Source: Bacteroidales bacterium (GTDB taxonomy: Bacteria > Bacteroidota > Bacteroidia > Bacteroidales > UBA12077). Taken from it: DNA of 35,222 nt. Each line of letters starts with the position of its first letter. Position 1 is the stretch's first letter. The position numbers and the translations under genes are program-made. The notes under the pieces are model-generated. The model saw only the letters and a program-made list of their open reading frames with translations. It was not told the origin of the DNA and searched no databases. The stretch spans positions 127,909 through 163,130 of the forward strand of contig JAHOYT010000011.1 in assembly GCA_019038645.1 (NCBI GenBank). Direction: 5' to 3'. Shown piece after piece: positions 1 through 15,256 of the stretch.

Positions 1-245
1 AATTTGCTAAAGCCATCAAGAACCAGATAAATCCCAATTGGAATATCATCGACAGGTTGCCATCCGCCAACTATATAACTTTCCTGTTTGCTGCAAAACA
101 ACAAAGAAATGCTAAAAAAGCACAGAATAAGCAACATAACCGGAGTAATGGTTTTAGCAAAATAGTTCGTAAGCTTTCCAATAACAGGAATGATAAAAGC
201 TGTTGCTAATGGTATTATTATAAATAAAGGAATCAATGAATTCAT
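1..245 (-). CDS. MrpD/MbhH-like antiporter subunit, N-terminal part (cut by window edge)
   Basis: Only the first 81 codons are present; the gene continues beyond the left edge. The reading begins MNSLIPLFIIIPLATAFIIP, a hydrophobic first helix, and later has GGWQPVDDIPIGIYLVLDGF. That resembles the GGW...GI.LV.D..S pattern at the start of MrpD, MbhH and NuoN-like ion-translocating subunits. The ATG at 245 lies 3 bases after the stop of the upstream mrpC-like gene, and AAAGGA just ahead of it may serve as ribosome binding site. In Mrp systems MrpD directly follows MrpC, so the order supports the call. It would be an integral membrane subunit of the ion-pumping arm of the hydrogenase. The family is well supported by context; whether the gene is intact cannot be seen. 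Confidence 0.8.
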   Translation of the reverse strand, partial: MNSLIPLFIIIPLATAFIIPVIGKLTNYFAKTITPVMLLILCFFSISLLFCSKQESYIVGGWQPVDDIPIGIYLVLDGFSK

Positions 246-248
246 TTC

Positions 249-587
249 TTATCCTTTTAAATTTTTTATTTCTCTTATATCGAAAGTTCCGTATTTACGG
301 TATAATCTTATTGCTATAGCCATAAGCATTGCTGTTGTTGCTAAACCAATTACAATTGCAGTTAAAACCATTGCTTGTGGTAATGGATCAACATATGTCG
401 GATTAATATCTTGTCCGGTTATGATTGGTGCTATTCCTCCATCAATATAACCGATTAAAGCCAGAAAGATGAAAATACTAAATTCCATGATTGATAATGA
501 AATCACTATCTTAACAAGGTTTCTTCTGGTAATTACACCGTATAAACCCACCAGAAATAATACGAAACATAAAATATAGACTATCAT
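249..587 (-). CDS. mrpC: MrpC/MbhG-like (NuoK-type) antiporter subunit
   Basis: A 112-residue membrane protein with three hydrophobic helices, the usual size for MrpC/MnhC, MbhG and NuoK. Family features include GLYGVITRRNLVKIVIS near residues 14-30, a membrane-embedded Glu in SIMEFSIF, and DPLPQAMVLTAIVIGLA before the third helix, which is nearly diagnostic for MrpC. In Mrp antiporters and Mbh hydrogenases it forms part of the membrane arm that links redox chemistry to Na+/H+ movement. Its ATG overlaps the end of the MrpB-like gene by 4 bases (ATGA), indicating translational coupling, and MrpD follows 3 bases later. The B-C-D order matches mrp and mbh operons. Confidence 0.92.
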   Translation of the reverse strand: MIVYILCFVLFLVGLYGVITRRNLVKIVISLSIMEFSIFIFLALIGYIDGGIAPIITGQDINPTYVDPLPQAMVLTAIVIGLATTAMLMAIAIRLYRKYGTFDIREIKNLKG

Positions 588-1021
588 TCTTCTATTTCTT
601 CTTTATAAATTAATAATGCCAGAAATATTGTTAAAAGTGCTGCGGCTACTTCGATACCAATAAAAATATTGTATAATGGAATCGTACCTGCACTTACTAA
701 ATCACCTATTTTGCCTGTAGGCAGATAATTATTAAAAAATACTTTTGTTCCAATAAAAAATCCTGCTCCTGCAAGCATTAGTGCAATTAGTATTGAAATG
801 CTTTCAGATAGTGAAGTGTTAGTTTCTTTCTTTTTTAAAAGTAAAGTATCTCTACCAAAAGCAAGAGTTTGCAGAATATATGCACCTGCTACAATGGCAC
901 CTCCGGCAAATCCACCGCCAGGAGTAAGATGTCCATGAACAATGATGTATATTCCATAAAGAAAAATAAACCCTGTTATTAACTGAGCAACTTTTTTTAC
1001 TATGAGAGACATTCCTTGCAT
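584..1021 (-). CDS. mrpB: MrpB/MbhF-like antiporter subunit
   Basis: A 145-residue protein with about four transmembrane helices, matching MnhB/MrpB size. The signature HGHLTPGGGFAGGAIVAGAY (about residues 29-48) is typical of MrpB and MbhF. It begins with helices IVKKVAQLITGFIFLYGIYI and ends with a short acidic tail (KEEIEE). It belongs to the membrane ion-translocation module; its exact role within Mrp is not defined beyond assembly of the MrpA-D core. It is preceded 4 bases upstream by the MbhD/E-like gene and overlaps the following mrpC-like gene by 4 bases. The start could be Met1 or Met4 (MQGMS); Met1 is used here. Confidence 0.92.
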   Translation of the reverse strand: MQGMSLIVKKVAQLITGFIFLYGIYIIVHGHLTPGGGFAGGAIVAGAYILQTLAFGRDTLLLKKKETNTSLSESISILIALMLAGAGFFIGTKVFFNNYLPTGKIGDLVSAGTIPLYNIFIGIEVAAALLTIFLALLIYKEEIEE

Positions 1022-1025
1022 AGTT

Positions 1026-1553
1026 TTATTTCTTTCCTTTAATTCTTAAAATAGTTAATACACCAATAGCTGCAGTAAACAGAATTGTAGCTTCGCCTAA
1101 AGTATCATATCCACGAAAATCGAATAATACTCCGGTAACAAGGTTTGCACTTCCTGTTTTTGCAGCTGTTTCTCCAACATAAGCACTTGCCATCCTTAAA
1201 GAATGTTGTCCGAATGGATTAAGCATATCAGTAGCCTGTACAAAGAAAAATATAAGAGCAAGCATAAAAATAAAGGCAAGTGAAATATTGAATATTTGTT
1301 GTGTGTCGATTTTTACTTTTAATTCTTCGCGCGTACTGTCCAGAACCACAGCTACCATTATTATCAGTGTTATTGTTTCCACAACGACCTGAACAATAGC
1401 TAAATCCGGAGCTTTTAATAATAAGAAACATATTACAAGGCTGTATCCCACAATTCCTGCAGCAATAACTGCAGAAAGCAGATCTTTTGCGTGCAGCGCA
1501 AATATTGCTCCTATAATCATGAATCCTAATAATATTGATAGTGTTACTTCCAT
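1026..1553 (-). CDS. Fused MbhD/MbhE-like protein (MrpA C-terminal domains)
   Basis: A 175-residue membrane protein corresponding to the C-terminal part of MrpA, which is split off as MbhD and MbhE in membrane-bound hydrogenases. Residues 1-75 look like DUF4040/MbhD, including [18 protein letters not shown]. Residues 95-175 look like MbhE, with [20 protein letters not shown], the VDFRGFDTLGE signature of MrpA C-termini. In Pyrococcus Mbh these are two genes; here they are one polypeptide, while the MrpA N-terminal antiporter domain may be represented by the separate 621-residue gene upstream. It lies 10 bases after that gene and 4 bases before mrpB, all in one operon. Confidence 0.87.
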
Positions 1554-1563
1554 AAATGCTATT

Positions 1564-3429
1564 TTATAATAAAATGAGTAACATAATTATTAATCCTGCA
1601 AAGACCCAAATGGCATAATTGGTTAATACACCAGTATGTACACCTTGTAATCCTTTGCTAAACCAAAGGATGATTTTCTTTGAAATATCATATATGTCGA
1701 ACCAACGTTTTTCTGCTTTATCGTAAAGAGTTGATAAGAACCCAAAATTTCTGATGGTTTCATAAAAACCGGTTGTTGCCATGCCGGAATCTTCGCGCAT
1801 GGTTTCGCCTCCACCAACAAAACTGTCTTCTGATCTGAAGTTTTTAATATTTCCAATAAGATAGATGATTAATCCTAAAACAATTGAAGCGAGAACCAGA
1901 ATGGAGACTGTTGTTGAGTTCCACATCCCGATTAGTTTAATTTCACCAACTATAGGATTAAATAATTTTGGAACAATATAATTGGTTGAGAAAACTCCAA
2001 ATACAATACAGCCAATTGCTATTAAACTAATAGGTAACCAACCGAAAATATTTACCTCTTTAACTTTTTCAAATTCTTTTTGCTTTCTGCCTAAGAATAA
2101 TCCTGAAATAAACTTAACGAAACTTGCCAGTGTTAATGCTGATCCTAAAACAGCTAAACCTAACCATACAATCCATAGTTGATTTGCAATTCCAATGCCC
2201 TGACCAAACTCAATAATTCCCTGATAAATCATCCATTTCGATGCAAAGCCATTAAATGGTGGAATACCGGAAATTGATAGAGCAAAAATTAATGCACAGA
2301 TAAAAGTTACAGGCATTGCCTTAGATAATCCACCCAGATCGTCAATGTCTGTTTTGCCGGTTTTCTTTTCAACATTACCTGAAACCAGAAATAATCCTGT
2401 TTTATACAATACATTGTTAAGCATATGGAACAAACCGGCCACAACACCAATTACAGTTCCCAGACCTAATCCAACAATCATATATCCAACCTGCGAAACA
2501 GCATGGAATCCAAGAAGCCGTTTGTAATTATGTTGAATTAAAGCCATGAATACGGCAGTAATAATAGTTATTACGCCTATAGTTAATAAAGTAAATGTTA
2601 ACCACTGATTTAATACAAACATATTATTACATATTCTTGCTAAGAAATATATACCAAGTAATTTATCAAGTGATGCCGGCATATATGCTGATGATGATGC
2701 AGGAGCATTTTTAGCATAATCGGGAACCCACGTATGAAAAGGAAAAGCACCGGCTTTTGTAAAACTTCCAATTAATAAAGCTAAGAAAGCTGTAACGGTT
2801 AATGCGTTATTGGTTGCCAGATTTAATTCATTAATACTAAGCGTATTAGTGATTTTCCAAATAATTGCAATACCAAGGATCATAATGCCATCAGAAGCTC
2901 CGACAATAATCAGTGTTTTTTTAGCAGCTGAAGAACTTTCCTCATCTGCTCCCTTTATCAGTTTGTATAATGTGAAACCTAAAATTCCCCAGAATGTCAG
3001 GAATAATAATAAATTATTTGATAAAACTGCCCCATTCGATGTTCCTAGTGTAATAAGGAAGAAGGCATAATAGTTATAGATCTTCTTGTTCTTATCAATA
3101 TAAAACAGAGAGTATATAACAATTAAGAATGCAAAAATATTAACAAATAAAATAATTAACTGACTCAGAGAATCAATGTTAAATGTTACATATTTTGCAG
3201 CGTCATTTAATGAGTTTGCATATAGCTGACAAATACCTGAATCGCCAATTAGTTGCTTTAAATCGTAAATTCCAACCTGACCATTAAATACCAATATCGA
3301 CTGGTAAAGAGCGTATAAAGAAATTATACTTGCAAGTATTCCTTTAATAGTTTTTAATTTCTCAGGAATTGCAAATAGCAATATACCTGCAAATATTGGT
3401 AAACAAATTATGTAAGTTATTTCATTCAT
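1564..3429 (-). CDS. NuoL/MrpA/HyfB-like proton-conducting membrane subunit
   Basis: A 621-residue multi-helix protein of the proton-pumping antiporter family. Visible signatures are [16 protein letters not shown] (Lys225, the TM7 lysine), [15 protein letters not shown] (Lys256), [14 protein letters not shown], and [16 protein letters not shown] (His335, Lys343, the TM12-type lysine). The C-terminal tail, [18 protein letters not shown] onward, resembles hydrogenase-linked members with an extra helix. One expected residue is absent. The TM5 Glu of NuoL and MrpA (motif W-E) aligns here with Trp147-Gly148 in [10 protein letters not shown]. The gene lies directly between the hydrogenase large subunit and the MbhD/E-like gene. 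It could be a stand-alone antiporter subunit or the split-off N-terminal half of MrpA. The family is certain; subfamily and pumping competence are not. Confidence 0.9.
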
Positions 3430-3438
3430 ATCGAACCT

Positions 3439-4632
3439 TTAAAATTGATTCTTAATATTCTGAGTTTTTTTAGCTGATAAAGCAATTAGTTCATTTCCGT
3501 TTAGTATTTTATCTCCGGTTTTACTATCGTATGCAACTGCCATTCGTTCTGTACAACAGTAGCAAGGATCAACAGCAGCTAAAGAAATCGTTGCATCCGA
3601 AATAGTTTGACCAATACATGATTTCTTAAAGGTTGCAATGTTGGTGTAACTTGGTGCACGTATTTTATGTCTTGCCGGAGAGTTTGAACCATCCGATAAT
3701 ACATAATGGAATACTTCGCCACGTGGAGCTTCTGCACGACCCGTTCCCCAGCCTGCAGGAATATCCTTAACTTTTACATTTATATCTCCCTCTTTTTCCT
3801 TTTTTAATCCTTCAAGGCATTGTTCTATAATTGATATAGATTCGTACATTTCTAATAATCGAACTTCGGCTTTAGCAAAAACATCGCCTTTTTCTGCTGT
3901 AATTACTTTCCAGTTAACAAGTGGATAAGCTGCATAAGGATCATCTCTTCTTATATCCACATCAATACCGGAAGCTCGTGCTGTTGGTCCAACAGCTGCA
4001 TAATCAATAATATCTTGTTTGGTTAAAACTCCAACTCCTTTTGTGCGAGCGTGTAAAACAGGGTCGTCCATTACTGCACCTACAAGCATATCTGTTTTCT
4101 TCTTTACTAAATCAAGAACGGGCGTAATTTGTGATATTTTATTGTTTTCAATATCACGGCGCACTCCGCCAACTTTGAACATAGCGTAACTGTTTCTGTT
4201 TCCTGAAATCATCTCGAACAAATCAAGAACTGGTTCGCGATATTTCCATGCCCACATAAATACTGTGTTGTATCCCAGGAAATGGCCTGCCAGACCAACC
4301 CAAAGTAAATGGCTGTGAATTCTTTCCAATTCACCAATTATTGATCTTATATATTTTGCACGATTTGTAATTTCTATATTTCCAATTTCTTCTATGGCAT
4401 TGGCAAAAGCAAATGGATGTGATGTAGAACAAATTCCGCAAATTCGTTCCACAAGAAAGAATGACTGATCGTAAGTTTTTTTCTCGCTCAGTTTTTCTAT
4501 ACCACGATGATTATAACCCGTTTCCCATTTAATATCTTTAACGATTTCGCCTTCGCAATACAACTTAAATAGTTCAGGCTCTTCCTGAAGCGGATGATAA
4601 GGTCCAATTGGTATAAGTGTTTTTTTAACCAT
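3439..4632 (-). CDS. Group 4 [NiFe] hydrogenase large (catalytic) subunit
   Basis: A 397-residue NuoD-type protein, the size of EchE, CooH and MbhL. Both nickel-binding pairs are present: RICGIC (Cys65, Cys68) and DPCYCC (Cys357, Cys360), so this is a real [NiFe] site rather than a complex I-type large subunit that has lost its metal ligands. The N-terminus, IPIGPYHPLQEEPELFKLY, and HRGIEKL are typical of group 4 enzymes. It catalyses reversible 2H+ + 2e- to H2 on the cytoplasmic face. After DPCYCCTER a 34-residue tail follows, resembling the HycE tail removed by HycI; no such peptidase is encoded in the window. It lies 17 bases after the NuoC-like gene and 9 bases before the antiporter gene. 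The exact group 4 subtype cannot be set by eye. Confidence 0.95.
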   Translation of the reverse strand: MVKKTLIPIGPYHPLQEEPELFKLYCEGEIVKDIKWETGYNHRGIEKLSEKKTYDQSFFLVERICGICSTSHPFAFANAIEEIGNIEITNRAKYIRSIIGELERIHSHLLWVGLAGHFLGYNTVFMWAWKYREPVLDLFEMISGNRNSYAMFKVGGVRRDIENNKISQITPVLDLVKKKTDMLVGAVMDDPVLHARTKGVGVLTKQDIIDYAAVGPTARASGIDVDIRRDDPYAAYPLVNWKVITAEKGDVFAKAEVRLLEMYESISIIEQCLEGLKKEKEGDINVKVKDIPAGWGTGRAEAPRGEVFHYVLSDGSNSPARHKIRAPSYTNIATFKKSCIGQTISDATISLAAVDPCYCCTERMAVAYDSKTGDKILNGNELIALSAKKTQNIKNQF

Positions 4633-4649
4633 TTTTATATTTCTCAGTT

Positions 4650-5087
4650 CTATTTAAACTCTCGTCTGTAAGGGTAAACTCCTTCCGCCCAGTTTCCTTC
4701 CGATATTAGTTTTCCAGGATCAGGATGGTTCAAAAATACAATCCCATATAATTCATTCATTTCACGTTCAATCCAGTTTGTTGCTGAAAACATATTTGAT
4801 AATGATTCAATTTCGGGTTTTTCAACCGGAAGAATCACATGTAAATTGGCTATTAAACCAATATTGTCTTTGCTAAAGTGATATAAAATCTCAAACCCTT
4901 TTTTAGTATGATTTGCTGTTGCAATAATAAATCTGAGCTCAAGATCTTTATATACATATTCAGCAATTTTTAAAAGAGATTCAGGTTTAATTGTAATGGT
5001 AGCTCTTGTTTCCGTTTTTTTGAAAACATCAACTACATCAGAATTAAACTTGTCTTTAATATTTTTTAAAATCTCATCCGTATTCAT
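4650..5087 (-). CDS. NuoC-like (30 kDa) hydrogenase subunit, EchD/MbhK type
   Basis: A 145-residue soluble protein of the NADH dehydrogenase 30 kDa family. The C-terminal half holds the family signature WIEREMNELYGIVFLNHPDP followed by VYPYRREFK, which corresponds to the EREv.dl.GI.F..Hp.l.r...d motif of NuoC. The N-terminal half is variable, as in EchD and MbhK. The family has no cofactor; it scaffolds the peripheral arm against the large subunit. It lies 13 bases after the NuoB-like gene and 17 bases before the large-subunit gene. The B-C-D order matches complex I and ech/mbh operons. Confidence 0.92.
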   Translation of the reverse strand: MNTDEILKNIKDKFNSDVVDVFKKTETRATITIKPESLLKIAEYVYKDLELRFIIATANHTKKGFEILYHFSKDNIGLIANLHVILPVEKPEIESLSNMFSATNWIEREMNELYGIVFLNHPDPGKLISEGNWAEGVYPYRREFK

Positions 5088-5100
5088 AATCGAATCTCTT

Positions 5101-5511
5101 TTACTTATTTAAAAGTTTAACAATACCAGCCAATATTGCTTCAGGTTTTGGCGGACAACCCGGAATATAGGCATCGACCGGAATAAGTTTATCAACTGGT
5201 CCGGCAAACGTATCTCCTTCGGCAAAAATTCCGCCAGTGCATCCACATGCACCAATTGCAACAACAACTATAGGCTTTGGCGCCTGTTCGTATAATTCTA
5301 ATAATCTGCTTTTATCGCGTTGATTTATTGATCCGTTAACAAGTAAAACATCTGCATGTCTGATACTTCCTATCAGTAACATTCCGAAACGCTCTAAATC
5401 GTATCGCGGAGTAAGACAATCGAGTATTTCAATATCGCAATTGTTACAAGATGCCCCACCGAAATGGAACAACCACAAAGACTTTTTAAAACAGAATTCT
5501 TTAAATCCCAC
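5101..5511 (-). CDS. NuoB-like [NiFe] hydrogenase small subunit, EchC/MbhJ type
   Basis: The group 4 small subunit carrying the proximal [4Fe-4S] cluster that passes electrons to the NiFe site. Ligand motifs are CNNC (Cys22, Cys25), GACGCTGG (Cys89) and PGCPPKP (Cys119), in the order of NuoB, EchC and MbhJ. The frame stays open upstream to an ATG at 5577, but that would bury 55 bases in the nuoH-like gene and add an atypical N-terminus. The GTG at 5511, 11 bases after the NuoH stop, gives VGFKEFCFKKSLWLFHFGGAS, a typical small-subunit start, so 136 residues are predicted. No strong ribosome binding site is seen. The NuoH-B-C-D gene order resembles several Ech and Coo clusters. Confidence 0.9.
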   Translation of the reverse strand: MGFKEFCFKKSLWLFHFGGASCNNCDIEILDCLTPRYDLERFGMLLIGSIRHADVLLVNGSINQRDKSRLLELYEQAPKPIVVVAIGACGCTGGIFAEGDTFAGPVDKLIPVDAYIPGCPPKPEAILAGIVKLLNK

Positions 5512-5522
5512 GTTTTTAATTT

Positions 5523-6455
5523 TTAATATCCAAAATATGAAAGCACTATTGCGATAATAGCTAACAGGTTCATCCATACAAGGAAATACCTTACAGCTTG
5601 TTTTATTTTAACTCTCGGATTTGTATTCCTGATGAGTGTTAGCAATAGCACTACAAATAGTATTTTTAATACTGACCAAAGAATATTAATTCCCTGAAAA
5701 TTGAGTCCTCCCCAAAGCAGTCCAATTAAGAATGCCGGGAGTATGAAAAACATAATATATTTTGCCAGCTTAATCATTGCATAAGGAGTTCCTGAATATT
5801 CGATCATTATACCGCCAGCAATTTCTGTTTCAGCTTCAGGCATATCGAATGGAACTAATGCAAGCTTGGCCTGAATACAAAATATCATTACAATGAATAA
5901 TATTATTCCGGAAATACTTCCTGCGAATGCACCATTCAGTCCTTGTTGCGAAATAATTTCGCCAAAACTGATAGTCATTCCAGCCTTTTGAATAATTGCA
6001 GCTAACACAAGAATAAATGTTAACTCATAACTTAAAATAAGTTTCATTTCACGCGATCCACCTACTGCTGCTAAAGCATTCCCTGATGCCAATGCGCCAA
6101 TAATATATGTTAATGATGGAATTGTTAGCAGATAAAAAATAACAATAATGTCACCATTAAACCCTGTTTCAATTCCTAATAGTGGCAGAAGAATAAAAAC
6201 TCCGGAAATGGATGCTCCGAATACTGCAAAAATAGGCGCAACAAAAAACACACCTTTCGAGCCATGTTTTGGTAATATGGTTTCTTTAACCAATAGTAAT
6301 TTAAAAAAATCATAAAATGGCTGAAATAATGGCGGACCTTTTCTGAATTGCACCCATGCAGTTATTTTTCTATCGTAAAATGATAAAAATGCACCAACCA
6401 CTGCTGCAAAGAGTAGTCCGGGAAATATTAAAAAATAAAATAATTGTTCTGCCAT
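5523..6455 (-). CDS. NuoH-like membrane anchor subunit, EchB/MbhM type
   Basis: A 310-residue membrane protein of the complex I subunit 1 family with about eight hydrophobic helices. Signatures are FYDRKITAWVQFRKGP near residues 26-41 (NuoH: ERK..A..Q.R.GP) and PEAETEIAGGIMIEYSG, the charged loop typical of NuoH, EchB and MbhM. It anchors the peripheral hydrogenase module to the membrane and forms the first part of the coupling path to the antiporter-like subunits. It follows the ferredoxin gene by 7 bases and precedes the NuoB-like gene by 11 bases. Length matches EchB (about 290-320 residues). Confidence 0.94.
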   Translation of the reverse strand: MAEQLFYFLIFPGLLFAAVVGAFLSFYDRKITAWVQFRKGPPLFQPFYDFFKLLLVKETILPKHGSKGVFFVAPIFAVFGASISGVFILLPLLGIETGFNGDIIVIFYLLTIPSLTYIIGALASGNALAAVGGSREMKLILSYELTFILVLAAIIQKAGMTISFGEIISQQGLNGAFAGSISGIILFIVMIFCIQAKLALVPFDMPEAETEIAGGIMIEYSGTPYAMIKLAKYIMFFILPAFLIGLLWGGLNFQGINILWSVLKILFVVLLLTLIRNTNPRVKIKQAVRYFLVWMNLLAIIAIVLSYFGY

Positions 6456-6462
6456 AATAAAA

Positions 6463-6954
6463 TTACTGTTTATCAGTATTCCAGATGTTTTCTTTAATTA
6501 AAACTCTGTCATTTAATTTATAAATATTTTCCTCAGGATTTTCGTCCATATCAACCATTGTAACCACTCCCGCAGGACATGCTTTAATAAATTCGTTTAG
6601 CTCATGATCGTCCGTCAGGTCAAAATATAAGTCTTTATTTATTTTATGAATAAAAAAATCTGTCATCATTGTTCCAAAAGGACAAATCGTTACACATGAT
6701 TTGCATGAGATGCATAAATTGGTGAATCTGTGAATTAAACCATCCAAATCTTTTTCCAGCGCTTCTGAAGGACAAACATTGATACATGGAGCATCTTCGC
6801 ACTTACGACATGTAAATTGGAATACAGCTAATTCGCGGATGGTTTTAAGTCCATTCAAATTGGCTTCCGGGTAGAAAACAGCCTCAGCAGGCGATTGATT
6901 GTTGTCAATCCCCGAACGATACCTGGATAAATCTATAAGTATTCTTTTGGCCAT
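6463..6954 (-). CDS. Two-cluster [4Fe-4S] ferredoxin-like electron transfer subunit (CooF/HycB type)
   Basis: A 163-residue protein with two ferredoxin-type motifs, CRKCEDAPCINVCP (Cys49, 52, 57, 61) and CISCKSCVTICP (Cys81, 84, 87, 91), and one further Cys in KACPAGVV. The CxxCxxAPCxxxCP form is typical of CooF, HycB and HydN-like proteins rather than NuoI or MbhN, which have a different spacing and sequence between clusters. No NuoI-type subunit is encoded nearby, so this protein probably bridges the electron donor module and the NuoB-like subunit. It lies between the cyclic-nucleotide-binding gene (9 bases) and the nuoH-like gene (7 bases). Cytoplasmic location is expected, as no signal peptide is seen. 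Confidence 0.88.
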   Translation of the reverse strand: MAKRILIDLSRYRSGIDNNQSPAEAVFYPEANLNGLKTIRELAVFQFTCRKCEDAPCINVCPSEALEKDLDGLIHRFTNLCISCKSCVTICPFGTMMTDFFIHKINKDLYFDLTDDHELNEFIKACPAGVVTMVDMDENPEENIYKLNDRVLIKENIWNTDKQ

Positions 6955-6963
6955 ATTCTTTAC

Positions 6964-7434
6964 TTAAAGTGAAAGCTGGTTTATTAGTTGAAACCTGGTA
7001 TCATTGAGTCTGTGCGATACAGTTTGAGCAATTTTTTTCATGAATTTAAATCCAAATTCGCAATCATTTAATCCACTGGCATTATTAATTTCCTTTTGTA
7101 TTTTTTTTGCATCAATTGCAATAACTTTAACAGGTGTTACAGCCATTACCCATGCAGTTGAAATATATGGGTGGAAAACGGCCGTCCATGAAAAGAGCTG
7201 TCCCTCTTCAATAGTACTAAGATGAATTCTTTTTCGTTGTGGTAAACTTATACCAAGAGATATACTTCCTTCTAACAGAACGTATAATTCAGAAAGCTCT
7301 TTATATTGTTCAAATATGATCTCTTCTACCTTGAATTTTTTGATGGAACTAATATTTGCAATCATTTCCAAATGTTTGTCGTTGAAATTTTCAAAAAATC
7401 TGGTGTTTTTAAAATCTTCTATTTTAGGTTTCAT
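6964..7434 (-). CDS. Stand-alone cyclic nucleotide-binding domain protein (Crp-type, no HTH)
   Basis: A 156-residue protein that matches only the sensory part of Crp/Fnr proteins. It has the entry helix FFENFNDKHLEMIANIS, a beta-roll with ELYVLLEGSISLGI (the typical YvileG motif), EEGQLFSWTAVF in the phosphate-binding cassette position, and a final long helix where Crp dimerises. The chain ends there, about 70 residues before a DNA-binding helix-turn-helix would be complete, so it cannot act as an ordinary Crp-type repressor or activator. The position inside the operon, between gamma subunit and ferredoxin, suggests a role in regulating or assembling the enzyme. The usual GE-x6-R-x-A cAMP pocket is not obvious, so the ligand, if any, is unknown. 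Confidence 0.85.
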   Translation of the reverse strand: MKPKIEDFKNTRFFENFNDKHLEMIANISSIKKFKVEEIIFEQYKELSELYVLLEGSISLGISLPQRKRIHLSTIEEGQLFSWTAVFHPYISTAWVMAVTPVKVIAIDAKKIQKEINNASGLNDCEFGFKFMKKIAQTVSHRLNDTRFQLINQLSL

Positions 7435-7475
7435 GATCTAAAATTTTAGCATTTTTCTTATCATTAATAATGATG

Positions 7476-8300
7476 TTATTCCCAAATAGATGGGGTATTT
7501 TTTAATTCGTCATAAGTAAATACAGGCCCATCTTTGCAAACGAAGTATTTACCCATCATACAGTGGCCGCACTTTCCAAGTCCACATGACATATTTTTCT
7601 CCATAGATAGATATATCTGATCATCGTTGAATCCAAGCTCAAGGAGTCTGATTGTTCCGAATTTCATCATGATTGGCGGGCCGCAACAAACAGCTACAGA
7701 ATTTTTTATATCAACTTTTACTTTATCCAGTAATACAGTTGCAACACCCACTGATTCATTCCATGTTTCATCCGGTATATCTACAGTTCTTAACACTTCG
7801 AATTTTGGAGTATTCCTAAGTTGTTCAACATAAGGCTTGTAAATACATTCGTCAGGTGTTTTAGATCCGTAGCAAAGAGTTACTTTCCGCAATTTGTCAG
7901 AAATTGCTGCAAGGCTATACAGAAGTGACCGGATTGGAGCAAAACCGCATCCGCCACCAAGAATCAGAACTTCCTTATCGTAAAACTTTTCGATTGGATA
8001 ACCCCTGCCAAACGGACCACGTATTCCAAGTGTTTCGCCAGCTTTCATGTTATGCATATATTCGGTTACATAACCGGTTTTCATAACCGTAACTTCAATT
8101 TTTTTGGTTTCAAGTGGCGATGATGATGGCGTAAAAGGTGCTTCTCCAATTCCATCTACAGTTAGTTCGATGAATTCACCTGTTTTAAAAGAGAAGTCCT
8201 CTTCAGGTTCCATCACAAAAGTTTTAATTGTTGGAGATTCTGTAATTACCTCCAGTAATTTAGCCCTTATAGGTTTGTATATGTTTGGGTTATCTGACAT
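7476..8300 (-). CDS. FAD/NAD(P)-binding gamma subunit (sulfhydrogenase HydG/AsrB-like)
   Basis: A 274-residue ferredoxin-NADP reductase family protein. Order of parts: an FAD-binding beta barrel with GEAPFTPSSSP near residues 52-62, a nucleotide-binding domain with LGGGCGFAPIRSLLYS near residues 113-128 and CCGPPIMMKF, and a C-terminal [2Fe-2S] motif of Cys239, Cys244, Cys247 and Cys255. The architecture is that of the gamma subunit of soluble group 3b hydrogenases, AsrB of anaerobic sulfite reductase and PyrK. It likely exchanges electrons between NAD(P)H, or another donor, and the beta subunit. It begins 3 bases after the beta gene. No soluble group 3b catalytic subunit or sulfite reductase AsrC is present, so the natural partner is the membrane-bound hydrogenase. 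Nucleotide specificity cannot be told by eye. Confidence 0.9.
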   Translation of the reverse strand: MSDNPNIYKPIRAKLLEVITESPTIKTFVMEPEEDFSFKTGEFIELTVDGIGEAPFTPSSSPLETKKIEVTVMKTGYVTEYMHNMKAGETLGIRGPFGRGYPIEKFYDKEVLILGGGCGFAPIRSLLYSLAAISDKLRKVTLCYGSKTPDECIYKPYVEQLRNTPKFEVLRTVDIPDETWNESVGVATVLLDKVKVDIKNSVAVCCGPPIMMKFGTIRLLELGFNDDQIYLSMEKNMSCGLGKCGHCMMGKYFVCKDGPVFTYDELKNTPSIWE

Positions 8301-8303
8301 TCT

Positions 8304-9305
8304 TTAGTTAGCTAATTCTTTGAATAAATCATTTTTATTTATTTTACCGATACATGCTTCAATACATCTTCCGCAGCCAGTGCAAACCAATGATTTAAAT
8401 TTTTGAGGTTTCCAGACATATTTACAGAAATATCTGTTTTTAAATCTTTTAGATAGCTCATATAGCGCATCTTCATCACCTGCCACTCTTTCGAATCCTG
8501 GATATTGGCATGCGTCCAGTTGTCGAACTTTTTCAAAATTTGGTTTGTCTATTAATAAAAAGCAAGTACAGGTCGGGCAAATAGCAGCACATGCACCACA
8601 AGAAACACACTTTGACGAATATTTTTTCCAGATTTCTTCATTTGCCTTTTCAACTATTTTTCCTGTTTTATTGTAATCTGGTAACCCGATGTTATCATTA
8701 ATAATCTGATACTCAATTTTACTTTGCTTTAATTCAATGTCTTTTATTTCTGTTTCAGGTGAATTTGATACACTTGCATAATTTTTTAATTCGGTAATGA
8801 ATTTCACGCCTTTCTCAGAAAGTACTTCTAAATGAATTCTCTGATCAACATGAGAAAGTGAAATGTCAGCTATTTCTTTGGAATATGGCTTAATTCCATA
8901 TGTCATACAATGACAATGCTCCTGAATTTCGAAACAGGATGAAGAGATTAGGATAGTATTATCTCTTTTTTGTTTATATAAACTATCGATATAATCTTTA
9001 TCAAGATATATTTCATCCAGTATTTTTAAGCCTTGTATATCACAGTTTGGAGCACCAATTATTATTCTTTTAATTTTCGTGCTATTATCAGTTGTTAAAT
9101 TTTCTTTAACAGGCAAAAAGAATGTTTTTAATGGTGTGGTTGGTTTAGGGATGTTGTAGACAATTTCTGAAATATTTTCCGGATTAACAGGTTCGTAATC
9201 CATCGAATTATTACTTTTTATTGGAGCATAAATTAAATAATCATTCAATAGCTGATCTATTGCACTATTCCAGTCAGAATTTAATAAGGAATAATAATTT
9301 TTCAT
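8304..9305 (-). CDS. 4Fe-4S beta subunit (sulfhydrogenase HydB/AsrA-like)
   Basis: A 333-residue soluble iron-sulfur protein. The N-terminal two thirds has the family motif GAPNCDIQGLKILDEIYLD and several Cys (Cys124, 131, 133). The C-terminal third holds two [4Fe-4S] motifs: Cys233, 236, 239, 243 in CVSCGACAAICPTCTC, and Cys308, 311, 314, 318 in CTGCGRCIEACIG. This matches the beta subunit of group 3b NAD(P)-linked hydrogenases and AsrA. It should relay electrons between the flavin gamma subunit and further Fe-S carriers. It is the first gene of the hydrogenase operon; its ATG is 4 bases from a palindromic operator-like site and about 26 bases from a predicted -10 element, so the leader must be short. 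Confidence 0.9.
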   Translation of the reverse strand: MKNYYSLLNSDWNSAIDQLLNDYLIYAPIKSNNSMDYEPVNPENISEIVYNIPKPTTPLKTFFLPVKENLTTDNSTKIKRIIIGAPNCDIQGLKILDEIYLDKDYIDSLYKQKRDNTILISSSCFEIQEHCHCMTYGIKPYSKEIADISLSHVDQRIHLEVLSEKGVKFITELKNYASVSNSPETEIKDIELKQSKIEYQIINDNIGLPDYNKTGKIVEKANEEIWKKYSSKCVSCGACAAICPTCTCFLLIDKPNFEKVRQLDACQYPGFERVAGDEDALYELSKRFKNRYFCKYVWKPQKFKSLVCTGCGRCIEACIGKINKNDLFKELAN

Positions 9306-9309
9306 ATTA

Positions 9310-9327
9310 ATGTGATGTCATTCACAT
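9310..9327. promoter_or_regulatory. Palindromic operator ATGTGA-N6-TCACAT before the hydrogenase operon
   Basis: A perfect inverted repeat with 6-base arms and a 6-base spacer, placed between the predicted -10 box and the start codon of the hydrogenase operon. The half-sites match those of the Rex consensus TTGTGA-N6-TCACAA except for the outer base, and Rex is encoded by the adjacent divergent gene. The same core also fits the classical Crp consensus, so a Crp-family regulator is an alternative. Binding here would be expected to block transcription initiation. Confidence 0.68.
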
Positions 9328-9330
9328 ATA

Positions 9331-9495: not shown

Positions 9496-9513
9496 TTGTG
9501 AAACAAGTCACAA
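9496..9513. promoter_or_regulatory. Rex-type operator TTGTGA-N6-TCACAA over the rex start codon
   Basis: A perfect inverted repeat that equals the published Rex half-site consensus. It begins two bases before the predicted GTG start of rex and runs 16 bases into the coding sequence. This placement suggests direct autorepression of the rex-hyp operon, lifted when the NADH/NAD+ ratio rises. It could also influence translation initiation by its RNA hairpin potential. Confidence 0.75.
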
Positions 9514-10130
9514 AACATGTTATCAGGAACGATTTGAAACGATTATTTACTTATCGTTTATGTTTAATTGGATTTAAACGAAAAGGGTTTGATCGTATAT
9601 ATTCTTATAACCTGGGTGAAGAAGCTGGAGTAACTGCAGAACAGGTAAGAAAGGATTTTTCTGTATTTAAAATTAAAGGAAATAAAAAGAGTGGATATAA
9701 AATAAATGATTTACTACACGCTATTAATGAGATTTTTAAATATCAACATAATCAACATGTGATAGTGGTTGGTATGGGTAATATAGGAAAGGCACTTGTC
9801 CAATACAAAAGATTTATTTTAAGAAAAATGGTTATAGTTGCCTCATTTGATATTGATCCATCGAAGCAATCAAAACGTTTTGGGATTCCTGTTATGCCCA
9901 TGGAAATGATGGGTGAAATAATTAAAAAATTTCATGTTAAAGTTGCTATTCTGGCTGTTCCCGATATTTCTGCTCAGGACACAGCAAACATTCTGGTTGA
10001 TCAGGGTATAACCGGTATTTTAAATTTTGCACCAGTAATATTAAAAGTTCCCGATGATATAATTGTAAGTAATATTAACCTCTGTGACGAGCTTGAAAGT
10101 GTAATTTATTACACTCAAAAAGTTATGTAA
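9498..10130 (+). CDS. rex: Redox-sensing transcriptional repressor Rex
   Basis: A 210-residue protein with the full Rex layout and usual length. Residues 1-80 form a winged helix, including YSYNLGEEAGVTAEQVRKDF, which matches the Rex recognition helix pattern (ts.qvRkDls.fG). Residues 85 onward form an NAD-binding Rossmann domain with GMGNIG at 92-97, and the C-terminal helix (ELESVIYYTQ) is the domain-swapped segment. Rex binds DNA when NAD+ dominates and is released by NADH, typically controlling fermentation and hydrogenase genes. No ATG is in frame; GTG at 9498 is the best start. It is divergent from the hydrogenase operon, with hypF starting about 28 bases downstream, so rex is probably the first gene of the hyp operon. 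Confidence 0.93.
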   Translation: MKQVTKHVIRNDLKRLFTYRLCLIGFKRKGFDRIYSYNLGEEAGVTAEQVRKDFSVFKIKGNKKSGYKINDLLHAINEIFKYQHNQHVIVVGMGNIGKALVQYKRFILRKMVIVASFDIDPSKQSKRFGIPVMPMEMMGEIIKKFHVKVAILAVPDISAQDTANILVDQGITGILNFAPVILKVPDDIIVSNINLCDELESVIYYTQKVM

Positions 10131-10158
10131 TTACTTTTATAATAGTTAAAGCTTTGTT

Positions 10159-12408
10159 ATTAAAAAGTCTGTATCTATATCTGTTGAAGGGCTGGTTCAG
10201 GGTGTTGGATTTCGCCCGTTTGTTTACCGTTTAGCACAAAAGTACAAGTTAAAAGGTGATGTAACTAATCGTACTAATGGTGTTGTTGTTAATGTATGTG
10301 GTAATGAAGAAGATATTGAATACTTTAGAAATGATATTTTAAAACTTGCTCCACCAGCGGCTTCTATAAAAAATATAAAATCAGTATTTACAAATGATTT
10401 ATATTCATCTGATTTTTCAATTTTGCCAAGTAAAACGATCAATAATTTAATAACAGAAATTAGTCCTGATATTGCATTGTGTAATGATTGTTTACAGGAT
10501 TTGAGAATTCAGAAACATCGGATAAACTATCCTTTTATAAACTGCACAAATTGTGGTCCCCGTTTTTCAATTATAAATAAACTTCCTTACGACAGGATAA
10601 ATACTACGATGCATGAATTTGCAATGTGCAAAAACTGCGAAACAGAATATAATAATGTTTATGACAGAAGATTCCACGCACAGCCTGTGGCTTGTAATTA
10701 TTGCGGACCAAAATATTCAGATAATGATGAACAGGATTTTGTAAAAATAATTAATAATGTAGCTTCAAAAATTGATAGTGGAAAAATTGTTGCTGTTAAA
10801 GGCTTGGGAGGCTATAATCTAATTTGTGATGCAAAGAATAATGAGTCGGTATTACGCTTAAGAGAAATAAAAGGTCGTGATGCTAAGCCCTTTGCAGTGA
10901 TGTTCAGAAATATTGAATCACTTAAGGAATATTGTGTATTAAGTAATGAAGAAAAGGAATTAGCCGAATCATGGCGTCGGCCAGTAATTGTACTTGATCA
11001 GAAAAAGGAATTGTGTTATTCAGTTAATAATGATCTGAAAAGCATTGGTGCATTATTACCTTATTTACCATTTCATTATTTATTGTTTGAAAAACTTTCC
11101 GTTTCGGCAATAATTTATACAAGTGCAAATAATTCAGGTGAGCCTATTATTTCTGATGATGCTTTTGCCAAAGGCAATTTGAACAATAAAGTAGATGCTT
11201 TTTTAAGTCATAATCGAAAAATCCAAAACCCAATTGATGATTCGGTAGTAAAAGTTGTGGATGGTAAACAACAAATTATTAGAAGAGCAAGAGGATTTGT
11301 TCCTAATCCGATTTATACATCAAATAGTGTTGATGGAATTTTTGCAGCCGGAGCAGAATTAAAAAATAGTTTTTGTATTGGGAAAAACAACATAGCTATT
11401 TTAAGTCAGTATATAGGCGATTTGAAAAATTTTGAGACTTTTGAGTTCTATAAAAATACTGTAAATCAGTTTTTTGATTTATTTAAGTTTGATCAAAAGG
11501 TAATTGCGTGCGATATGCATCCTGAGTATTTATCCACAAAATTTGCCAAAAATTATAATGTGAATAATCTGAATGGCAACAGAATTCCGTTAATTAAAGT
11601 TCAGCATCATCATGCGCATATTGTTTCTTGTATGGCCGAGTATCAATTGAATGAAAAAGTGATTGGAGTAAGTTTTGACGGCACGGGATACGGAACCGAT
11701 GGTAATATTTGGGGAGGTGAATTTCTGATTTGTGATACGAAAACATTTGAGCGTTATGCTCATTTTGATTATGTTAAAATGCCTGGTGGAGATTTGGCTG
11801 TTGAAGAACCATGGCGTATGGCTTTGTCATATTTAAATCATTATTCTGTTAACAGAATTCAAAATACGGATTGCTTTAAAAATGTAAAAGAGGAAGAATT
11901 TGAACTTGTGCAAAAAATGATTGACAAGAATATCAATTCATCCTTAACTTCAAGTGCAGGCAGGTTGTTCGATGTAATTGCCTGTTTGCTTAATTTATGT
12001 CCGAAACAATCATTTGATGCCGAAGGACCAATGCGATTAGAGGCTATTATTGATAAATCAGAAAAAAAATATTATCCTTTCGAAATAGTAAATGGTATTG
12101 TCAGGTTTGAAAAAATGCTAAATGCAATTCTTGATGATATGAGTAAATGCTCTGCTTCCACAATATCGGCAAAATTTCATAATACCATAGTTCATATAGT
12201 TTATGATATTGTAAATAAAATAAAAAAGGACACAGGAATAAAAAAAGTTGTTCTTTCGGGTGGCGTTTTTCAAAACCGGTATTTGCTGGAAAAATCAATT
12301 CAGATTCTTGTTAAAAATAATTTTGAAGTCTATACGAATCACTTAACACCACCAAATGATGGTGGAATTGCTCTTGGACAGTTAGTTATTGCATCTAATA
12401 ATATTTAA
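10159..12408 (+). CDS. hypF: Carbamoyltransferase HypF (probable ATT start)
   Basis: HypF makes the thiocarbamate on HypE from carbamoyl phosphate, the source of the CN ligands. All domains are visible in order: acylphosphatase with VQGVGFRPFVYRLA (about residues 13-26), two zinc fingers (CNDC, CTNCGPRFS, CKNC, CNYCGP), a YrdC-like domain, and a Kae1-like domain with HHHAHIVSCMAEY and SGGVFQNRYLLE. With an N-terminus IKKSVSISVEG the length is 749, normal for HypF. Between the in-frame stop at 10147-10149 and the acylphosphatase motif there is no ATG, GTG or TTG. ATT at 10159 fits best; the only standard start, TTG at 10423, would delete the acylphosphatase domain. It lies 28 bases after rex and 1 base before hypC. 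Confidence 0.93.
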   Translation: MKKSVSISVEGLVQGVGFRPFVYRLAQKYKLKGDVTNRTNGVVVNVCGNEEDIEYFRNDILKLAPPAASIKNIKSVFTNDLYSSDFSILPSKTINNLITEISPDIALCNDCLQDLRIQKHRINYPFINCTNCGPRFSIINKLPYDRINTTMHEFAMCKNCETEYNNVYDRRFHAQPVACNYCGPKYSDNDEQDFVKIINNVASKIDSGKIVAVKGLGGYNLICDAKNNESVLRLREIKGRDAKPFAVMFRNIESLKEYCVLSNEEKELAESWRRPVIVLDQKKELCYSVNNDLKSIGALLPYLPFHYLLFEKLSVSAIIYTSANNSGEPIISDDAFAKGNLNNKVDAFLSHNRKIQNPIDDSVVKVVDGKQQIIRRARGFVPNPIYTSNSVDGIFAAGAELKNSFCIGKNNIAILSQYIGDLKNFETFEFYKNTVNQFFDLFKFDQKVIACDMHPEYLSTKFAKNYNVNNLNGNRIPLIKVQHHHAHIVSCMAEYQLNEKVIGVSFDGTGYGTDGNIWGGEFLICDTKTFERYAHFDYVKMPGGDLAVEEPWRMALSYLNHYSVNRIQNTDCFKNVKEEEFELVQKMIDKNINSSLTSSAGRLFDVIACLLNLCPKQSFDAEGPMRLEAIIDKSEKKYYPFEIVNGIVRFEKMLNAILDDMSKCSASTISAKFHNTIVHIVYDIVNKIKKDTGIKKVVLSGGVFQNRYLLEKSIQILVKNNFEVYTNHLTPPNDGGIALGQLVIASNNI

Positions 12409-12409
12409 T

Positions 12410-12625
12410 ATGTGTTTAAGTATTCCGGGTAAAATAATAAAAATTGATAATGATTTGGCAGAAGCTTCTGTGGGTGGCACAATTGTAAAAATTGGAATTC
12501 AGATGGTTGAAAATGTTAAAGAAGGAGATTATGTGCTGGTACATGCCGGATTTGCATTACAAAAAATTGACGAAAAGGAAGCATTAGTAACATTGCAGTT
12601 ATTGCGTGAAATGAATGAAAGTTAA
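12410..12625 (+). CDS. hypC: Hydrogenase assembly chaperone HypC/HybG
   Basis: A 71-residue protein starting MCLSIPGKIIKI, the invariant HypC N-terminus, whose Cys2 binds iron and the hydrogenase precursor. The ATG at 12410 is chosen because the family always begins MCL; an open frame extends seven codons upstream into hypF. The protein has the small beta-barrel pattern with VKEGDYVLVHAGFALQKID, where HAGFA is conserved. HypC works with HypD to carry the Fe(CN)2CO unit to the large subunit. It starts one base after the hypF stop. A REP-like palindrome pair lies between it and hypD. Confidence 0.95.
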   Translation: MCLSIPGKIIKIDNDLAEASVGGTIVKIGIQMVENVKEGDYVLVHAGFALQKIDEKEALVTLQLLREMNES

Positions 12626-12635
12626 TTTATACAGT

Positions 12636-12707
12636 TCACACTTCGATAAACTCAGTGTGACAAGTAATTTTATTAATATATGTCATACTGAGTTTATCGA
12701 AGTATGA
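12636..12707. repeat. Head-to-head REP-like palindrome pair between hypC and hypD
   Basis: Two 27-base units (12636-12662 and 12681-12707) are near-perfect reverse complements separated by 18 bases. Each unit also folds alone: TCACACT pairs with AGTGTGA in the first, TCATACT with AGTATGA in the second, so the C/T and G/A differences compensate. The core CTTCGATAAACTCAGT looks like an AT-rich version of a dispersed bacterial palindrome with core CTTCGACAAGCTCAG. Transcribed, it could form one long stem-loop within the hyp mRNA. Confidence 0.8.
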
Positions 12708-12728
12708 TTTTATAGATTGAAAGGTAAA

Positions 12729-13811
12729 ATGAAATTTATTGATGAATACAGAGACTTTGAAATAGTTCAGAATATTTCAAAAAAGCTCAGAGAGTACGAT
12801 CGTGAAATTTCCATAATGGAAGTATGTGGTGGCCATACTATGGCAATTCATCGATTTGGGATACCTTCTTTATTGCCTGAAAACATAAAGCTGATTTCAG
12901 GTCCGGGATGTCCGGTTTGTGTTTCTGGAATTGGATTTATTGACAATGCAATTGAATGCTCAAAAATTAATGATGTTATAATTACAACATATGGTGATTT
13001 AATCCGCGTTCCGGGATCTAAAAGTAGTCTGGAAAAAGAAAAATCAAGAGGAGCCGATATTCGAATTGTATATTCTGCACTCGAAGCGCTGGAAATAGCC
13101 AGATCTGAGAAAAATAAAAAAGTAATTTTTTTGGGAATCGGATTCGAGACAACCGCTCCCGGAACTGCAGTCACAATCCAAAAAGCATACAATGAAAGTA
13201 TTTCAAATTTTTATTTGCTTAGCACACATAAAATTATGCCTCCGGTAATGGAAGCGTTATTGAACGATAAAGTAAAAATTGATGGGTTTATTTGCCCGGG
13301 ACATGTGAGCACAATTACCGGATCCGGTATTTATGATTTTATTCCTGAGAAATACAAAATAGCTTGTGTTGTTACAGGTTTTGAACCAACAGATCTTATG
13401 CAGTCTATTTATATGTTGGCAAAACAAATCAACAGTATAGATCAAAAGGTTGAAATTCAGTATTCAAGAGCAGTTGTAAAACAAGGAAATATTAAAGCTC
13501 AGAATATAATGAACGAGGTTTTTGAAACTCGTGATGATAATTGGCGCGGGATTGGAGTAATTCCAAATAGCGGATTAAAACTTAAAGAAAAGTATAAAAG
13601 TTTTGATGCAGAACTTGTTTTTGATGTTAAGGTAAGTTCTGTGAAAGAGAATACTGCCTGTATTTGTGGTCAAATTTTAAGAGGATTAAAAACTCCAAAA
13701 GATTGTAAGTTATTTGGGATGGTTTGTTCTCCTGAAAATCCTGTTGGTGCTTGTATGGTTTCAAACGAAGGAGCTTGTCACGCATATTATAAATACCGTA
13801 ATTATGAATGA
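12729..13811 (+). CDS. hypD: Hydrogenase formation protein HypD
   Basis: A 360-residue iron-sulfur scaffold that, with HypC, assembles the Fe(CN)2CO group. Signatures in order are MEVCGGHTMAIHRFGI, GPGCPVCVSG, FLGIGFETTAPGTA, ICPGHVSTITG, VTGFEPTDLMQ, and the C-terminal Cys-rich part with ACICGQILRG, MVCSPENPVGACMVSNEG. The cluster ligands and active-site Cys are therefore kept. The ATG at 12729 is preceded by GAAAGG and is preferred over an in-frame TTG four codons upstream. It overlaps the hypE start by 8 bases, suggesting translational coupling. It is separated from hypC by the REP-like pair. Confidence 0.95.
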   Translation: MKFIDEYRDFEIVQNISKKLREYDREISIMEVCGGHTMAIHRFGIPSLLPENIKLISGPGCPVCVSGIGFIDNAIECSKINDVIITTYGDLIRVPGSKSSLEKEKSRGADIRIVYSALEALEIARSEKNKKVIFLGIGFETTAPGTAVTIQKAYNESISNFYLLSTHKIMPPVMEALLNDKVKIDGFICPGHVSTITGSGIYDFIPEKYKIACVVTGFEPTDLMQSIYMLAKQINSIDQKVEIQYSRAVVKQGNIKAQNIMNEVFETRDDNWRGIGVIPNSGLKLKEKYKSFDAELVFDVKVSSVKENTACICGQILRGLKTPKDCKLFGMVCSPENPVGACMVSNEGACHAYYKYRNYE

Positions 13812-14814: not shown

Positions 14815-14859
14815 GTAATTTTTGGTATTTGTTATTTGATATTTGGAGTTTTAAAAGTT

Positions 14860-15207
14860 ATGCACGAATTAAAAATAGCTGAAGAATTAATTGGGATTAT
14901 TACTGAAGTGGCAAAATCAGAAAATCTGAAAAAGGTTACTAAAGTAAATATACAGTTTGGAAAAATGATTATGATCGTTCCTGATGTTTTTCGTTTTGTT
15001 TTTGAAGGAGGAGTTAAAGGAACCGTTGCCAAAAGTGCAAAATTGAATCTGGAAATATTGCCGGTAAAATTTGCTTGTAATAAATGTAAAGAAGAAACCG
15101 AGATTGATGATTTGTTATTTGTTTGTCCTTACTGTGGTTCAAATGATCTGGATCTGACGCAGGGACGCGAAACAATTATTGAGAGTATCGAAGGAGAGAA
15201 ATGTTAA
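14860..15207 (+). CDS. hypA: Nickel metallochaperone HypA
   Basis: A 115-residue protein with the essential Met-His-Glu N-terminus (MHELKIAEELIGII), which binds nickel, and a zinc site made of CNKC and CPYCG. It delivers Ni to the hydrogenase large subunit together with HypB. The ATG at 14860 is chosen over an in-frame ATG at 14836 because the nickel-binding MHE must be at the N-terminus. The order hypE-hypA-hypB and the single strand suggest one operon from rex onward. Length is normal for the family. Confidence 0.94.
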   Translation: MHELKIAEELIGIITEVAKSENLKKVTKVNIQFGKMIMIVPDVFRFVFEGGVKGTVAKSAKLNLEILPVKFACNKCKEETEIDDLLFVCPYCGSNDLDLTQGRETIIESIEGEKC

Positions 15208-15256
15208 ATTGTTAAATAGCCAAAAGCGGTTAGCTAAAGGCAAAAAGCTAAACATC

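Follow-up and report, generated by a model that had tools for sequence, protein, structure and literature searches.

What enzyme is formed when two genes of a pyridine nucleotide module, asrA and asrB, stand at the head of an operon for a membrane-bound [NiFe] hydrogenase is the question raised by one end of a stretch of DNA of 35,222 nucleotides from a Bacteroidales bacterium (the window; C1:127909-163130 of a 3.39 Mb assembly of 102 contigs and 96.9% completeness). It appears probable, at roughly 0.6, that the operon encodes one membrane enzyme with an input arm like that of formate hydrogenlyase, in which a group 3b NAD(P)H module replaces the formate dehydrogenase, set on a two-antiporter Mrp-type arm. 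The subunits, the cofactor ligands and the conserved gene order of this system are established.

Gene content and conservation of the operon

Subunits were identified by Pfam and NCBIfam profile scans of the open reading frames (ORFs) of the window and of adjoining stretches, which revealed 12 subunit ORFs and one CRP-like ORF, all on the minus strand between positions 3 and 9305. The scans bear out a preliminary description of the window, in which beta and gamma subunits (AsrA and AsrB), a CooF-like ferredoxin, an Ech/Mbh-type core, a NuoL/MrpA-like subunit, MbhD/E and MrpB, C and D had been placed in one operon. The operon passes base 1 of the window and continues in the adjoining stretch L006 with the rest of MrpD, MrpE, MrpF, MrpG, a NuoI/HycF-like protein, a HycI-type protease (ending 3.5 kb outside the window), a 135-amino-acid ORF with zinc-finger matches that are all sub-threshold, and a 237-amino-acid membrane protein, in this order. 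Thus NuoB-, NuoC-, NuoH- and NuoI-like partners of a group 4 large subunit lie within one operon, and a Mrp module of the Mbh type (MbhD/E and MrpB, C, D, E, F and G) is found beside the hydrogenase core.

Regarding conservation, loci were counted among the best 80 of at least 540 named relatives, with identities of 77-94%; contig ends truncate many of these loci, and the per-gene counts only take those whose contig reaches far enough (for AsrA plus AsrB, 5 kb upstream). The loci of 15 relatives in an earlier set overlap the 80, many on the same contigs, and the counts are not summed. Those genes that are present keep their order in 80/80 loci. AsrA and AsrB are found together in 60/60 loci (59 with 80% or more of each protein, and L067 with 73% of AsrA), and AsrB was detected in 66/66, the CooF-like ferredoxin in 68/68, MrpD in 59/59, MrpG in 54/54, the NuoI-like protein in 51/51, the HycI-type protease in 49/49 and Rex in 50 of 56. 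These named near relatives are Bacteroidales or Bacteroidota records, mostly metagenome-assembled genomes, while two records not labelled as such, Labilibacter sediminis CG51 and Marinilabiliaceae bacterium JC017, also have homologous loci. The observed gene set is one conserved system. A candidate for an operon lacking asrAB, L137, was rejected, as two of its 100-base N gaps interrupt the operon.

The distribution of the operon is patchy. Orthologues of the large subunit with 75% identity or more were detected in 16 of the 39 genomes searched (own genome included), i.e., in 10/20 within the genus and in 6/19 outside it, the latter from four of the 17 families sampled. The genome G305, which belongs to another class, keeps the order AsrA-AsrB-CooF-H-B-C-D-L-MbhDE-MrpB-C-D in the stretch fetched, with identities to the own operon of 56% for the large subunit and 36% for AsrA. 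The search of genomes for the same gene order, which the preliminary description had proposed, thus found it both in near relatives and, from AsrA to MrpD, in another class. AsrA matches at E <= 1e-20 are present in 112 of 395 genomes sampled evenly across the phylum; among the matches listed, own genome aside, identity is only 25-37%. Of six such distant matches fetched with their flanks, only G305:C40 is this operon. In G375, AsrAB lie beside a short stretch that matches the large subunit at 32%, and in G387, G077, G305:C24 and G194 AsrAB are present and no large-subunit match was found in the stretches fetched; in G077, two antiporter-like matches also lie at a distance of some kb. These distant AsrAB homologues without this large subunit sit in L181, L182, L184 and L185, from other Bacteroidota classes.

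Neither a group 3b catalytic subunit nor a sulfite reductase subunit had been noticed in the window, and this holds for the assembly: a PF00374 search finds the [NiFe] large subunit of this operon and no other, group 3b alpha subunits included, and a search with TIGR02912 gave no AsrC over the cut-off (five partial matches, covering profile positions 163-237 or less). AsrA itself was found once in the assembly, at this operon. AsrAB are taken to belong with the membrane enzyme, as had been supposed, because they occur in all 60 loci that could be scored and in G305 from another class, and because the single AsrA has no other [NiFe] or AsrC partner among those searched for.

Conserved residues and a candidate operator

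The large subunit is NuoD-like and has two CxxC nickel motifs that align with those of MbhL and HycE, as in group 4. Its nickel ligands C65, C68, C357 and C360, described before as intact, are invariant in 12 aligned relatives and present in 80/81 rows of a wider set. A C-terminal extension of 34 amino acids follows the motif DPCYCCTER; it measures 33-39 amino acids in 80/81 rows, the remaining row being cut short, and is also seen in the alignment with HycE. Together with the HycI-type protease, this extension suggests that the large subunit would undergo normal maturation. The best solved match is MbhL (285 bits), followed by HycE at 257. In the large-subunit tree the 12 Bacteroidales rows form a clade (98/99) with no settled position among the HycE, MbhL, Butyrivibrio and Azospirillum homologues, where long branches meet, and no HydDB group is assigned. 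In one relative (G017; L042 / L062) the large-subunit gene contains an early in-frame TGA, which may be an assembly error.

In the flavin unit, AsrA has 16 cysteines invariant in 63/63 rows, all of which align with cysteines of the Pyrococcus furiosus sulfhydrogenase I beta subunit. AsrB has FAD and NAD(P) domains and the [2Fe-2S] cysteines C239, C244, C247 and C255 in 68/68 rows, which align with the P. furiosus sulfhydrogenase structure 9nez; the alignment with 9nez_C gave no readable preference for NAD or NADP.

Two ferredoxin-like subunits are encoded. The CooF/HycB-like protein has eight cysteines in 70/70 rows, enough for two [4Fe-4S] clusters. It had been thought to stand in place of NuoI or MbhN, a view that was rejected, as a NuoI/HycF-like gene for a 204-amino-acid protein with a double [4Fe-4S] motif is present further along the operon in L006. 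This protein is nearest to HycF of the Escherichia coli formate hydrogenlyase (E 6e-20, vs 3e-13 for MbhN), and HycF is also the first PDB match of its predicted structure (predicted local distance difference test, pLDDT, 69). Its C-terminal extension keeps C126, C129, C190 and C193 in 55-56 of 56 rows; in HycF, the extension that bears the cysteine quartet makes contact with HycB (PMC9474812). An adapter of the HycB type and the quartet co-occur in the small number of operons compared: both are present in E. coli hyc, the Azospirillum operon has a HycB-like ferredoxin (4e-22) and a quartet-bearing NuoI-like protein, and the Butyrivibrio Ech-like operon has neither, a pairing that illustrates the point and does not prove it. 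The Azospirillum operon, on a plasmid of Azospirillum thermophilum (L148 2697-12065), encodes a group 4 hydrogenase with an aldehyde ferredoxin oxidoreductase, the HycB-like ferredoxin and a MoaD-like protein, the oxidoreductase being an apparent dedicated partner.

In the membrane arm, MrpD keeps the glutamate at the position that we take to be in transmembrane helix 5 (TM5), whereas the NuoL/MrpA-like subunit has glycine there in 74 of 75 rows (serine in one), as does that of G305 (L180 2823-4637, minus strand). The aligned solved chains MrpA, MbhH, 6u8y_X and HycC all have glutamate at this position.

A palindrome, TATGTGA-N6-TCACATA, lies between asrA and the divergent Rex gene. With at most two mismatches it is found in 40 of 59 distinct Rex-asrA intergenic regions (30 exact) and in 0/1180 mononucleotide shuffles, the 59 being left of 67 after removal of repeats; all 67, repeats included, gave 1/1340 shuffles. 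The pattern was picked from the same related sequences, and the shuffle control thus speaks for non-randomness and not for independence. In 38/40 cases the site ends 31 bases or less from the end of the slice, which was cut approximately at the asrA start. The palindrome (at most two mismatches) occurs once in the window and was not detected in L006, L147 or L007, and no wider Rex regulon is claimed. It is a probable candidate for a Rex (or CRP-type) operator, and control by NADH/NAD+ is suggested because the Rex gene adjoins and the palindrome is conserved.

The proposed enzyme and its alternatives

In the proposed membrane enzyme, electrons from NAD(P)H would enter at the FAD and [2Fe-2S] cluster of AsrB, pass to the Fe-S clusters of AsrA and through the CooF/HycB-like adapter to the NuoI/HycF-like ferredoxin, and then reach the NuoB-like cluster and the [NiFe] site, with NuoH coupling this flow to the two-antiporter Mrp-type arm, which would move Na+ or H+. 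The contacts within the complex, this electron path and the ion coupling are predictions from sequence. The direction is probably reversible. In cells, NADPH lies at about -370 mV, NADH at about -280 mV and H2 at 1-10 Pa at about -270 to -300 mV. At such potentials H2 formation from NADPH could drive the export of roughly one ion for every two electrons, and only at low H2; NADH would be near balance, and at higher H2 its use for H2 formation would consume the gradient, or the enzyme would make NAD(P)H from H2.

Among the nearest known systems is E. coli formate hydrogenlyase (group 4a; PDB 7z0s/7z0t, PMC9474812), which shares the HycF-type ferredoxin with its cysteine quartet, a HycB-related ferredoxin, the NuoB/NuoH core, the large subunit with C-terminal extension and the HycI-type protease. 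It differs in having a formate dehydrogenase instead of AsrAB, four [4Fe-4S] clusters in HycB vs two in the CooF-like protein, and HycC alone, whereas Mrp-type parts and two antiporter-like subunits are present here. FdhF was not found among the operon genes or window ORFs scanned, nor by reading in L006; the search did not extend to the rest of the genome.

Several points weigh against the proposed enzyme. The 80 loci are those of the nearest relatives, and their conservation is less telling than the single distant case. The function, in particular the NAD(P)H-to-H2 chemistry and the ion coupling, is predicted from the genes. The bridge from AsrA to the HycF-like subunit is proposed only, because the CooF-like protein keeps two full clusters, compared with four in HycB, and has a structure model of low quality (pLDDT 62), too weak for a structure search; moreover, the cysteine pairs of the quartet are spaced x60 here vs x34 in HycF. 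Ferredoxin could also enter at the NuoI/HycF-like subunit. The NuoL-like subunit is without the TM5 glutamate, and ion coupling there may differ from that of Mrp. The same genome has a group A6 (NADH-dependent) [FeFe] hydrogenase with adjoining NuoE- and NuoF-like genes, and a homologue of RnfC, and several other routes between NADH, ferredoxin and H2 are thus possible. Regarding Rex control, the palindrome has three or more mismatches in 19/59 regions and is equally compatible with CRP-family sites, the core TGTGA-N6-TCACA fitting the Rex and CRP-family consensus alike.

That the operon instead encodes a ferredoxin-coupled, Mrp-linked hydrogenase (Mbh-like, HydDB 4d/4g), with AsrAB and the CooF-like protein as a second port at which electrons pass between ferredoxin, H2 and NAD(P)H, is rather unlikely; variants are a ferredoxin:NAD(P)+ oxidoreductase with H2 overflow or a confurcation of ferredoxin and NAD(P)H. 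To our knowledge, Mbh (group 4d) is by definition an enzyme with ferredoxin entry at an MbhN-like subunit, without a pyridine nucleotide module and without a CooF-like subunit, whereas here both AsrAB and the CooF-like protein are present in every locus that could be scored and the NuoI-like subunit is HycF-like. A second flavoprotein of the NfnL or NuoF type was not detected among the operon genes scanned, which also argues against this alternative. The lead of MbhL among the solved large-subunit matches speaks for it, as does the likeness to P. furiosus Mbh (PDB 6cfw) in Mrp-type parts, MbhD/E and large subunit, to which the operon adds the NuoL-like, AsrAB and CooF-like subunits. Group 4g enzymes are, moreover, presumed in print to be ferredoxin-coupled (PMC5037454, PMC8542988, PMC7886697); HydDB has 4g as uncharacterised (PMC5037454), and it has been split into six distinct lineages, none biochemically characterised as of 2021 (PMC7886697). 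Mrp-linked 4g hydrogenases of anaerobes, in Omnitrophota and Cloacimonadota, are alike by description in being membrane hydrogenases, and beta/gamma subunits or CooF are not mentioned in the part of that source consulted (PMC8542988).

Two further alternatives turn on AsrAB. If these formed an H2-driven NAD(P)+ reductase, the enzyme would mainly oxidise H2 to yield NAD(P)H, helped by the ion gradient; this is consistent with the listing of group 3b as physiologically reversible with NADP(H) (PMC5037454) and with the A6 hydrogenase as a possible source of H2, but group 4 is described as H2-evolving (PMC5037454). A Rex repressor, too, would be expected to raise expression at high NADH, when NADH needs disposal, and we regard this alternative as unlikely. 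It is very improbable that AsrAB form a separate soluble NAD(P)H-dependent reductase of sulfite, polysulfide or another acceptor that shares only the transcript. AsrA/AsrB and the sulfhydrogenase beta/gamma pair are indeed parts of sulfite and sulfur reductases, and four of the six distant stretches fetched have AsrAB homologues without this large subunit, but AsrAB accompany the hydrogenase in all scored loci and in another class, no AsrC was found over the cut-off in the assembly, and the CooF-like gene is placed between asrB and the core genes. In comparison with the AsrABC sulfite reductase, the homologues of AsrA and AsrB are alike but fall below the cut-offs; in comparison with the group 3b NADP hydrogenase, or sulfhydrogenase I (PDB 9nez), beta and gamma are alike with their cluster ligands, but they score far below the NCBIfam cut-offs and no alpha was found in the assembly.

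A published report of exactly this architecture, which the preliminary description had held would undo its case, comes close to existing. In Saganbacteria RX5A, a group 4 hydrogenase with Mrp-like subunits, cooF, asrA and asrB has been reported as an "enigmatic" cluster, for which an oxidoreductase module and a Mbh-like working were suggested (Matheus Carnevali et al. 2019, PMC6349859). That cluster, from a different phylum and likened here by description and not by sequence, adds a molybdopterin oxidoreductase (PMC6349859), which was not detected in the window ORFs covered by the Pfam scans, nor by reading in L006. Thus the combination is already in print from Saganbacteria, and the Bacteroidales operon is a variant of that idea. 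In the open-licence PubMed Central literature, supplements aside, no description of the Bacteroidales operon was found among the matches listed, and none of the form without the molybdopterin enzyme or of its HycF-type subunit, Rex and palindrome; the consulted parts of PMC7382037 and PMC8674449 hold nothing on this operon.

Features of the region and meaning of the operon

The features of the window that belong to the operon, its upstream region and the adjacent maturation genes are given in Table 1. The NuoB-like ORF as listed overlaps NuoH, and its real start is probably internal.

Table 1. Positions of the hydrogenase operon, its candidate operator and the divergent genes in the window.
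Feature	Position	Strand	Evidence or remark
MrpD-like antiporter subunit, start only (508 amino acids; cut by window edge, rest in L006)	3..245	-	
MrpC/NuoK-like	249..587	-	PF00420
MrpB-like	584..1021	-	PF04039
MbhD/E-like (MrpA C-terminal) subunit	1026..1553	-	PF13244, PF20501
NuoL/MrpA-like antiporter subunit	1564..3429	-	PF00361; PDB alignments
[NiFe] large subunit, Ni ligands C65, C68, C357, C360	3439..4632	-	PF00346, PF00374
NuoC/EchD/MbhK-like subunit	4650..5087	-	PF00329 1e-20
NuoB/EchC/MbhJ-like small subunit	5101..5577	-	PF01058 6e-32
NuoH/EchB/MbhM-like membrane subunit	5523..6455	-	PF00146 5e-61
CooF/HycB-like ferredoxin	6463..6954	-	Pfam; HycB 7z0s_B 7e-9, sixth among PDB matches; HycB by blastp 2e-12
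Cyclic nucleoside monophosphate (cNMP)-binding, CRP-like ORF, optional	6964..7434	-	PF00027
AsrB/HydG-like gamma subunit	7476..8300	-	Pfam FAD_binding_6, NAD_binding_1, DHODB_Fe-S_bind; PDB 9nez_C E 5e-49
AsrA/HydB-like beta subunit, Fe-S protein	8304..9305	-	NCBIfam ShyB 145 bits (cut-off 690), AsrA 119 bits (cut-off 323); PDB 9nez_B alignment
Palindrome TATGTGA-N6-TCACATA, one mismatch in own copy	9309..9328		just upstream of asrA
Rex redox-sensing (NADH/NAD+) repressor, divergent	9498..10130	+	NCBIfam Rex 213 bits, cut-off 138
Maturation genes hypF, hypC, hypD, hypE-like, hypA, hypB-like	10423..15907	+	Pfam

The CRP-like ORF (6964-7434) is cNMP-binding and has no Pfam DNA-binding domain match; it is found inside the operon in 19/60 loci and does not figure in the preliminary description. 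The hypF frame is open 5' of the listed TTG start (10131-10440, plus strand), where reading revealed an acylphosphatase-like N-terminus and no in-frame ATG, GTG or TTG. Further along the window, at 20055-24272 on the minus strand, a 1405-amino-acid protein combines a BadF/BadG-type ATPase with DUF2229 (CoA enzyme activase). Past the far end of the operon, L006 221-8988 has ORFs that on reading resemble multihaem cytochromes, a fusion protein for cytochrome c biogenesis (1037 amino acids), a pair of CRP-type regulators and a protein with a double rhodanese-like make-up. A second complex-I-like cluster of the same genome (L007 51-5940, G000:C25) consists of NuoH-, NuoB-, NuoC- and NuoD-like genes followed by a 599-amino-acid ferredoxin/GltD-type flavoprotein; by reading, the two full nickel motifs are not both present in its NuoD-like protein, and the cluster is reminiscent of Ehr/Mbx-type complexes with a NAD(P)H partner.

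Regarding its place among related enzymes, the system could be a NAD(P)H:proton oxidoreductase that pumps ions, i.e., a relative of complex I whose input arm was newly built from group 3b/AsrAB parts on a formate hydrogenlyase frame, with H+ replacing quinone as the acceptor. Such an enzyme would be switched by Rex and would have persisted in several families of the Bacteroidales and in one or more further classes; taken as a whole, we put this tentative extension of the proposed enzyme somewhat short of an even chance. If true, the coupling of a complex-I-like machine to pyridine nucleotides would here have been solved independently. If NAD(P)H is used, the energy accounts of the Bacteroidales that carry the operon would need to change, and the operon would represent a second, independent joining of a pyridine nucleotide module to a complex-I-like ion pump.

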